From: a virus
IMG/VR virus record: IMGVR_UViG_3300020472_002243
Location: 1 to 27,276 of that record
Length of the DNA: 27,276 nucleotides
Reading direction: 5' to 3' (one strand)
Part shown: positions 7,097 to 8,901 of the stretch, piece by piece
Numbering within the stretch: position 1 is the stretch's first letter
Layout: each line of letters opens with the position of its first letter
Translations under genes and position numbers: made by a program
The notes under the pieces: model-generated
The model's database searches: none
The model's input: only the letters and a program-made list of their open reading frames with translations
What the model was told of the DNA's origin: nothing

Positions 7097-7343
7097 ATCA
7101 AAACTACTAGAGGATAAATTTATGACACCTGCAAAGTTTTCGCAGGAAGTTGAGAAGATTGCTATCCACAATTCTGATATGAATTATATTGATGCAGTTC
7201 TACATTTCTGTGAAGTGAATGAGATTGAAGTGGAATCAGTACCTAAGTTACTATCAAAACCACTCAAAGAAAAGATTAAATATGAAGCACAGGAACTAAA
7301 CTTTATTAAAAAAACATCAAGAGCAAAATTACTTCTAGTCTAA
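7089..7343 (+). CDS. 33: Late-transcription accessory protein gp33
   Basis: 84 residues. The segment MNYIDAVLHFCEVNEIEVE followed by SVPKLLSKPLKEKIKYEAQELNFIKK matches from memory cyanophage gp33, which tethers host RNA polymerase to the gp45 sliding clamp and helps gp55 use late promoters. T4 gp33 is 112 residues, so this is short but typical for cyanophages. The C-terminus ends in KLLLV, hydrophobic like the clamp-binding tails of gp33. The start at 7089 overlaps the exonuclease end by 8 nt; ATG 7122 has a better ribosome site (AGAGGA, 7 nt away) and is the alternative. Confidence 0.82.
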   Translation: MDKSKLLEDKFMTPAKFSQEVEKIAIHNSDMNYIDAVLHFCEVNEIEVESVPKLLSKPLKEKIKYEAQELNFIKKTSRAKLLLV

Positions 7344-7690
7344 TGGGAACATTCTTTCAGTCCGAACTGGTACGTGGTACTATACAAGAGATGACAGTAC
7401 TCCAAGAGTTCTGTTTCAAATCTGCTATGAACCTTCCATTATTAAAGAGGGAACAGCAGTTAGAATATTTTGATGCGTTGATACAGTTGATAGAGAAACA
7501 AAAGATATTTTATACTCGTATCCAATTGACTGATGATCCAGAGGCAGACTCTATCAAAGAGAACATGAAGCAAGCAGCACTGTTGCTTGGTGGTGACCCT
7601 AACATGGATGTACTCAACATGTTCAACGATTTGTTAAAAAAAGTTACAGCATACAGAAAGCATGTTGAAGGACTTGACAAAGGTTCCTAA
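7343..7690 (+). CDS. DUF1825-like protein
   Basis: 115 residues. The pattern (FFQSELVRGTIQEMTVLQEF, then REQQLEYFDALIQLIEKQKIFYTRIQL, cited here by parts) matches the DUF1825 family of cyanobacteria and cyanophages, which begins MGFFDSExV. It is all-helical and soluble; its role is not known. Its start shares one base with the gp33 stop (TAATG). In T4 the position after gene 33 is occupied by dsbA, another small late-transcription DNA-binding gene, but there is no sequence evidence for equivalence. The end of the gene contains the TTGACA box of the gp32 promoter (7674-7679). Confidence 0.75.
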   Translation: MGTFFQSELVRGTIQEMTVLQEFCFKSAMNLPLLKREQQLEYFDALIQLIEKQKIFYTRIQLTDDPEADSIKENMKQAALLLGGDPNMDVLNMFNDLLKKVTAYRKHVEGLDKGS

Positions 7691-7704
7691 CCGTGCTATA
7701 AATA
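7674..7704 (+). promoter_or_regulatory. Combined early and late promoter for gp32
   Basis: TTGACA (7674-7679) is followed after a 17-nt spacer by TATAAA (7697-7702), a near-perfect sigma70 promoter. The same -10 is part of TATAAATA (7697-7704), the T4 late consensus. One site could therefore serve host-type RNA polymerase early and gp55/gp33-modified polymerase late. The predicted RNA start is near 7709. Confidence 0.75.
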
Positions 7705-7983
7705 GTATATCGGGTTCGCTACCTGATACGGGAGTGACTGAATCAAACTTGCTGGCAATGGTCTAGTTAAGGTGATGAGTCAGAGGTGGTGCTCGCTGTT
7801 GGTAACAACAGAACTGTCCAACCAGACAGGACTCATGCAACGCAGTAAAAATTTACTTATGTAGAAATGCCCTGTGTTTGTAGGTATACATTATTCCTAC
7901 CTCCCACCCCAAACCTAAGATGCAACTCGTAAGAGTGGGGCAGATGGTTTACACAAAACAAATCCAATTAAATCTAAAACAAT
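7705..7983 (+). promoter_or_regulatory. Structured 5' leader RNA of gp32 (no ORF)
   Basis: This gap of about 290 nt holds no gene. It can fold into several good stems: 7709-7715 with 7721-7727; a closing stem 7775-7781 (ATGAGTC) with 7830-7836 (GACTCAT) enclosing two hairpins, 7796-7801/7806-7811 (CTGTTG-GTAA-CAACAG) and 7814-7818/7824-7828, as a three-way junction; 7880-7884/7896-7900 (GTAGG/CCTAC); and 7925-7928/7933-7936 (ACTC-GTAA-GAGT). Two loops are GNRA type. The last 36 nt before ATG contain no G and so no Shine-Dalgarno. In T4, gp32 represses its own mRNA by binding an unstructured leader next to a folded pseudoknot; the layout here fits that, by inference. Confidence 0.65.
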
Positions 7984-8901
7984 ATGTCATTCGCAGAATT
8001 AAAGAAAAAATCCAGTAGCAATTTTCAATTCCTTCAGAAGGAACTAGAGAAATCATCATCAAACAGTAATGCTGATGATAGATTTTGGAAACCAGAAGTT
8101 GACGCAAGCGGTAACGGTTATGCAGTCATCAGATTTTTACCAGCACCAGATGGTGAGACAGTACCTTGGGCAAAGTTATATTCACATGCCTTTCAAGGAA
8201 CAGGTGGTTGGTACATTGAGAACAGTCTCACAACATTAGGTGAGAAGGATCCAGTAGGTGAAGTCAACCGCAGACTATGGAACAGTGGTGAAGATGCAGA
8301 CAAAGATACTGCACGTAAGCAGAAGCGTAAGCTTTCATACTACAGCAACATCTATGTTGTAAAAGATCCAAAGAACCCTGAGAACGAAGGTAAAGTATTC
8401 TTATACAAGTATGGGAAGAAGATCCATGACAAGATCCTTGCAGCAATGCAACCTGAGTTCCAAGATGAGACACCAGTAAATGTGTTTGATCTTTGGGAAG
8501 GTGCTAACTTCAAGTTAAAGATTAAGAAAGTAGCAGGTTACTGGAATTATGACAGCAGTGAGTTTGATAGTGTGTCTGCTCTTAGTGCAGATGATTCTGA
8601 ACTGGAAGCAACATGGAAGTTGGAGCACTCTCTCGAAGCGTTCACAGCGAAAGACAACTTCAAGTCCTACGATGACCTCGAAGCAAGATTGAATCTTGTT
8701 TTAGGTACTAGTCAACGTAGACAAGCAGCACCTGTTGCTGAAGAACTTGAGGTTCCTATCACTGCACCACCAACAGCAAGTGTTACTCCTTCATCTTTCA
8801 GAGAGAAGGTAGGTGCTTCTGCTAGTCCAGTTAAGAAGGAAGCAGTCGTTGATGATGACGATGCACTATCTTATTTTGCATCACTAGCATCTGATGACTA
8901 A
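7984..8901 (+). CDS. 32: Single-stranded DNA-binding protein gp32
   Basis: 305 residues, close to T4 gp32 (301). It coats ssDNA in replication, recombination and repair. The basic N-terminal LAST-like segment (ELKKKSSSNFQFL), the central OB-type core with GYAVIRFLPAP and YYSNIYVVKDPKNPENEGKVFLYKYG, and the acidic C-terminal tail (DDDDALSYFASLASDD) that contacts partner proteins are all present. The protein has no cysteine at all, so the zinc site of T4 gp32 is missing; the corresponding region reads GEKDPVGEVNRRL. ATG 7984 has no Shine-Dalgarno and sits at the end of a G-free leader, which suggests translational self-control as in T4. Confidence 0.96.
   Translation: MSFAELKKKSSSNFQFLQKELEKSSSNSNADDRFWKPEVDASGNGYAVIRFLPAPDGETVPWAKLYSHAFQGTGGWYIENSLTTLGEKDPVGEVNRRLWNSGEDADKDTARKQKRKLSYYSNIYVVKDPKNPENEGKVFLYKYGKKIHDKILAAMQPEFQDETPVNVFDLWEGANFKLKIKKVAGYWNYDSSEFDSVSALSADDSELEATWKLEHSLEAFTAKDNFKSYDDLEARLNLVLGTSQRRQAAPVAEELEVPITAPPTASVTPSSFREKVGASASPVKKEAVVDDDDALSYFASLASDD

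Follow-up and report, generated by a model that had tools for sequence, protein, structure and literature searches.

Organization of the locus

The window, i.e. the whole stretch of 27,276 nt that was analysed, derives from a T4-like cyanophage, in which the ORF list and Pfam identify a DUF1825-like gene (7343-7690), followed by a leader RNA and by gp32 (7984-8901). The preliminary description had presented the leader as possibly undescribed and matching no nameable family. For positions 7708-7910 this is ruled out by cmscan, which recognizes the manA RNA (RF01745) over the whole model, 1-192 out of 192, with 160.4 bits (E 5.2e-43), in excess of the gathering score of the family, 55.2 bits. 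Up to E = 1, manA is the only Rfam family matched in the leader, and "undescribed" is correct solely for the 3' hairpin at 7911-7950, called E2 below. The full record, IMGVR_UViG_3300020472_002243, contains a single manA copy. The features of the locus are the following:

7343-7690, plus strand: upstream gene, DUF1825-like (Pfam PF08855, 24.7 bits, slightly below the cut-off of 25)
7674-7679, plus strand: manA promoter, -35 box TTGACA, lying within the final codons of the DUF1825-like ORF that precedes manA
7697-7702, plus strand: -10 box TATAAA, preceded by a 17-nt spacer (from sequence)
7697-7704, plus strand: TATAAATA, also matching the T4 late-promoter core (from sequence); among the copies listed, found in gp32-linked ones only
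7708-7910, plus strand: manA RNA (RF01745), full length (cmscan, covariation); predicted transcription start at about 7709
7730-7734, plus strand: 5' strand of the manA pseudoknot, GGGAG, with partner 7901-7905 (Rfam alignment mapped to the window)
7901-7905, plus strand: 3' strand of the manA pseudoknot, CUCCC (Rfam alignment mapped to the window)
7911-7950, plus strand: element E2, hairpin AAACC[UAAGAUGCAACUC-GUAA-GAGUGGGGCAGAU]GGUUU, a 3' domain beyond the Rfam model (comparative structure counts, MFE)
7951-7983, plus strand: gp32 translation-initiation region (sequence common to the gp32 leaders of manA-less phages)
7984-8901, plus strand: gp32 gene, ssDNA-binding protein (Pfam PF08804, 159 bits)

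The manA family is already known, and E2 is absent from Rfam. The motif has been a riboswitch candidate of unknown function since 2010, and is filed as cis-regulatory (Weinberg 2010, PMC2864571); the paper on phage S-CREM1 repeats this reading, still to be verified according to its authors (PMC9964418). In the open-access literature we found no paper on the function of the RNA and, in what is available there on PHM2_011 and cyanophage ncRNA, no evidence of its expression; the accessible parts of PMC5082946 and PMC7368042 contain nothing on manA. The window copy resembles the family in matching the full-length model, with the same helices and pseudoknot, and in its cyanophage, marine setting; it differs in standing before gp32, in the TATAAATA form of its -10 region and in the 3' E2 domain, absent from the model.

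Secondary structure and covariation

The stems proposed in the preliminary description are confirmed at their positions, the Rfam consensus helix 7776-7781/7830-7835 being the one given there as 7775-7781/7830-7836. This helix had been taken to close a three-way-junction-like core with two hairpins: the helix stands, but the consensus, mapped to the window, encloses three hairpins (7783-7785/7792-7794, 7796-7801/7806-7811 and 7814-7818/7825-7829), so that, with the 3-bp hairpin included, the junction is four-way. Both GTAA tetraloops are found where they had been placed, 7802-7805 in the second of these hairpins and 7929-7932 in the hairpin 7925-7928/7933-7936, within E2.

The folding energy of the leader is mildly unusual (z -1.76; 10 out of 200 shuffles fold as well or better), that of the minus strand featuring a z of -1.35. 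Folding energy alone is weak evidence for structure; covariation is decisive. In an alignment of 42 diverse manA copies 91.5% of the cells are paired, two-sided changes occur in 37 out of 55 pairs, and 307 cells carry them, against 87 in shuffles. The loops contain 55 columns invariant among the 42 sequences, about 18 of which are fixed by the selection pattern. Since the same pattern fixes the pseudoknot letters, GGGAG/CUCCC is invariant in this alignment; P-HM1 and MED4-213, however, feature GGGUG/CACCC, a two-sided change which is probably one event. The pseudoknot was drawn with a question mark by Weinberg (2010, PMC2864571), and the manA alignment of Rfam 14 has 48 significant base pairs (PMC7779021). 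Covariation, which had been proposed as a check on the leader, is strong both for manA and for the E2 hairpin, the latter in 55 sequences; the refuting outcome named along with it, absent covariation together with weak conservation among relatives, did not occur.

Two other roles of the RNA were considered and discarded. A small protein encoded within manA is rejected, as RNA and core lengths occur in all three phases modulo 3, with no long common frame. A role of the conserved AGGUGAU in binding the 3' end of 16S rRNA is likewise discarded, as this sequence is not preserved in the divergent copies of P-TIM40, S-SSM4 and L220. Several "hypothetical proteins" are annotated inside or over manA (L202:4063-4237, L203:4015-4221, L213:4041-4214, L209:3951-4127, L217:4056-4187), examples of such ORFs being PHM2_011/012, SSSM5_127, PSSM4_169.1, PHM1_121 and SSSM7_180; they are probably not genes.

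The E2 element

E2 is defined by the motif ACCUAAGAUGCAAC..GGGCAGAUGGU, and its window copy lies outside the Rfam manA model. Among the 102 places listed, 89 follow a manA core at a distance of 174-191 nt, and none was found apart from manA, the remaining 13 having less than 200 nt of contig in front, too little for linkage to be decided.

As loci L002-L081 were retrieved with a gp32 query and L219-L313 with an E2 query, less biased counts use the pattern set alone, i.e. the 99 copies, among the matches listed, that were found by the manA core pattern and have at least 120 nt downstream; some of its loci recur in the E2 scan. The set includes 15 out of 17 isolates, P-RSM1 having been missed by the regular expression and P-RSM3 merged as a duplicate of P-SSM4. 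E2 follows manA in 23 of these 99 listed copies and in none of the 15 isolates; by its exact pattern, which fixes its conserved letters, it is absent from the 17 isolate genomes and from two large IMG/VR records.

Over the 55 sequences 97.7% of the cells of the hairpin are paired, and two-sided cells number 19, compared with 3.8 in shuffles. The outer stem covaries, G-C being replaced by A-U in 11 out of 55, and the internal loop, part of which was fixed by the search pattern, is almost invariant. In the window the MFE of E2 is -10.8 kcal/mol, 9 out of 200 shuffles being equally good. Elsewhere a T-run is frequently found 3' of E2, which suggests that the element doubles as a terminator; this run is absent in the window.

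The manA promoter

Boxes of the sigma-70 type, positioned so that transcription would begin near the first base of the 5' hairpin of manA, match at 10/12 or better in 201 of the 207 listed copies with enough upstream sequence, compared with 6 out of 207 shuffled sequences and 22 out of 612 random places; TTGACA is exact in 183 of the same 207. By its sequence, the RNA thus has a promoter of its own at the 5' end, as expected of a ncRNA gene. Of four copies lacking it, three (L090, L144, L198) begin 3 nt from a tRNA-Thr, and the fourth (L145) has, by eye, a tRNA-like sequence upstream.

In 85 out of 203 listed copies the -35 box falls within the hairpin that terminates the gene upstream (control, 2 out of 203), an arrangement suggesting that manA is severed from that gene and started anew. 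Examples (L029, L083, L093, L209) read GAGGGTTGACACCCTC-T7-..TATAAT, some 60-35 nt upstream of the manA core.

The TATAAATA form of the -10 box is found in 29 out of 62 gp32-linked copies and in none of the 119 others, among those listed, and in the window it could also serve late transcription. A T4 late promoter was rejected as a signal by which manA copies in general would be started, because TATAAATA is missing from all these 119 copies and sigma-70 boxes are nearly universal.

Copy number and position

Each of the 17 isolate genomes carrying manA has exactly one copy by covariance model, at sites which we grouped, by annotated neighbors, into about seven kinds: gp32, gp23, pstS, regA-purS, the talC region, ferredoxin and tRNA-Gly. 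Exactly one copy was also found in 18 out of 19 IMG/VR records, the other having none, and in all three records of a further set; as these were mostly found through manA or E2, they are informative only on the lack of a second copy. Two copies lie on a 4.8-kb contig, L162 (119-315 and 3636-3836), one preceding a small gene and thyX, the other gp32, and the genes are ordered as in the window.

The clearest change of position is seen in P-HM1 and P-HM2, which share a species name and carry 87% identical copies about 100 kb apart, each having the site of the other empty. In P-HM2, manA lies between the gp32 promoter and gp32, where P-HM1 shares the promoter sequence and has a short hairpin; in P-HM1 it lies behind gp23, with its own promoter and a terminator before the next ORF, where P-HM2 has a plain terminator only. 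Such a relocation, as read from the two genomes, is hard to square with the control of one particular gene.

Downstream sequences

The next long ORFs fall into 41 clusters across the 188 manA copies listed, and in 179 of these the next ORF is on the same strand, an orientation which does not discriminate between the readings weighed below. Pfam names of the next genes include gp32, transaldolase, ThyX, DUF6561, PMM, Hsp20, mannose-P isomerase and PurS. The functional coherence that characterizes the genes behind a riboswitch is not observed in these listed clusters, where gp32 and talC occur along with ThyX, Hsp20 and PurS.

In the pattern set, among the matches listed, a terminator is found within 120 nt behind manA in 28 out of 99 copies (control, 8 out of 328) and a tRNA within 60 nt in 14; one or the other, a candidate 3' end before the next gene, occurs in 42, neither being present in the window. 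A U-run right behind CUCCC is found in 39 of the 99, and its inclusion raises the figure to 63; the other 36 of these listed copies have no terminator, tRNA or U-run. In S-SSM7, manA abuts a tRNA-Gly.

In four loci (L110, L161, L173, L189) manA is followed by CGTTCATC..GGACGCAAGTAAG, which we take to be a glutamine-riboswitch-like sequence and which would by itself regulate the next gene. In P-RSM6 (L205:3527-3579) a match to the Glutamine-II riboswitch, at 33.1 bits (cut-off 33), lies about 400 nt before manA.

The gene most often found next to manA is gp32, with 19 out of 99 listed pattern-set copies, the other 80 lying elsewhere; the linkage to gp32 expected of a T4-type operator is therefore not observed. 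All 8 Synechococcus-isolated reference phages lack manA, and gp32 is annotated in 7 of them. The gp32 start region, CAAATCCAATTAAATC.., is common to phages with and without manA. In the window no terminator separates manA from gp32, and, with nothing to stop transcription, the manA RNA would here also be the gp32 leader. Gp32 leaders without manA contain, right behind the promoter, a hairpin-closed element, GTTGG(G)CAG..CGTAAGAC(C)CAAC (L012 upstream of 5001, L023 upstream of 3647, L385 upstream of 433), for which no match was found in Rfam.

Distribution among phages and hosts

Twenty-four "Prochlorococcus phage" records contain a T4-like gp23 or gp32, and blastn detects manA in 20 of them; the remaining four are presumably Syn1 and Syn33, with two records each, both isolated on Synechococcus and manA-negative by covariance model. 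Counting distinct Prochlorococcus-isolated T4-like phages, including the P- named cyanophages, manA is present in 14 out of 14, 13 by covariance model and P-SSM5 by blastn. It is found in 8 out of 377 Synechococcus-named records by blastn, and in none of the 8 Synechococcus-isolated reference genomes by covariance model; further Synechococcus-isolated carriers are S-TIM4, S-SSM6a and S-SSM6b. S-CREM1 has manA according to its paper (PMC9964418), and blastn gave no manA match for it: either divergent copies are undercounted or its record is outside the collection. The records point to a link between manA and Prochlorococcus which is strong, not exclusive.

A bacterial manA was also considered and rejected: out of 68 pattern matches in bacterial genome contigs no more than three survived the motif filter, all of them scoring as manA. 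Among 201 genomes of the host family manA was found in one, which holds one of these three matches, a Prochlorococcus single-cell genome (L353), on a 189-kb contig which also carries a T4-like gp23; the cell was probably infected.

Nature of the manA RNA

Taken together, promoter, copy number, position and 3' context make it rather probable, as far as genome comparison can tell, that manA is a separate, single-copy, independently transcribed and relocating phage RNA gene, acting in trans. The preliminary description had left the choice between a different RNA element and an independent small RNA; the latter appears the better alternative, given the dedicated promoter, the one copy per genome, the shifting location and the terminators and tRNAs frequently found behind. 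The present evidence favours a separate RNA gene over the cis-regulatory filing of RF01745. Host sigma-70 RNA polymerase would start at about 7709 from TTGACA-17-TATAAA, and the transcript would fold into a 5' hairpin, a multi-branched core closed by the pseudoknot and the E2 hairpin, in line with the covariation. The RNA would act in trans on some part of the infected cell, which is in most cases Prochlorococcus, and could for this reason occupy any genome position and move between sites. As E2 has no strong U-tract here, transcription would very probably continue into gp32, and manA would at this site also be the gp32 5' leader, possibly freed by partial termination or processing.

Some observations count against a separate gene: the next gene is on the same strand in 179 out of 188 listed copies, which a leader requires; none of the three 3' signals follows 36 of the 99 listed copies; gp32 is the commonest neighbor, with no terminator before it in the window; L162 has two copies; and a promoter at the 5' end is equally expected of a leader RNA. 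A rival reading is a cis-acting riboswitch or regulatory leader which senses a metabolite or the state of the cell and sets the expression of the next gene, here gp32. It is in keeping with the mostly same-strand next gene, with the conserved internal loops and pseudoknot, with the fact that, in the window, manA is not separated from gp32 by a terminator, and with the U-run behind CUCCC (39 out of 99 listed copies), which could be an attenuator. The window is consistent with the type assigned by Rfam, a cis-regulatory 5' UTR; the relocation in P-HM1 and P-HM2, the tRNAs next to manA (14 out of 99 listed copies) and the complete terminators found in between elsewhere fit it poorly, as do the single copy per genome, the 41 unrelated clusters of next genes among the matches listed and a gp32 start region independent of manA. 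We consider a cis-regulator rather unlikely.

The almost constant attachment of a promoter, and the short hairpin that manA-less phages have at the same place right behind the gp32 promoter, would also suit a portable expression cassette, in which a strong promoter and a stable 5'-terminal structure boost the level or the life of the following mRNA. A mere stabilizer, however, would not need loops so conserved (55 invariant columns, about 18 of them pattern-fixed), and many copies are followed by a terminator or a tRNA, which makes this function improbable. T4 gp32 has a leader that is short and gp32-specific, with which manA shares the position of a structured RNA before gp32; manA differs in being about 200 nt long and in lying mostly elsewhere in other phages. 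That manA is a longer version of the T4 leader pseudoknot, serving as a gp32 autogenous operator, is suggested by its position in the window and in P-HM2, but 80 out of 99 listed pattern-set copies are not beside gp32, and many gp32 genes stand without manA. Such a role is most improbable, and not tenable as the general function of manA, in agreement with the earlier suggestion that the leader differs from T4 gp32 autoregulation.

As a separate RNA gene, manA would resemble stand-alone RNAs of phages and bacteria such as 6S RNA in having its own sigma-70 promoter, terminator or tRNA neighbors and a single copy; it differs from them in that the leader matches none of the other Rfam families up to E = 1. 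More tentatively, and with some doubt, the comparisons may be extended to a mobile single-copy trans-acting RNA gene present in essentially every Prochlorococcus T4-like phage, which would have a variable 3' domain (E2), capture or carry a promoter that is often merged with the preceding gene's terminator, hop among intergenic sites, and act on a conserved part of Prochlorococcus that most Synechococcus phages need not target. To judge from the accessible parts of the open-access literature, there appears to be no earlier description of E2, of the promoter rule, of the fusion between terminator and promoter, or of the relocation of manA.

If manA is a trans-acting phage RNA, the search for a ligand would be the wrong experiment, and the P-HM1/P-HM2 pair, with its common host MED4, would make direct experiments possible. 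As an RNA gene carried by each Prochlorococcus T4-like phage examined, manA would indicate a shared step in the takeover of a very abundant photosynthetic cell.
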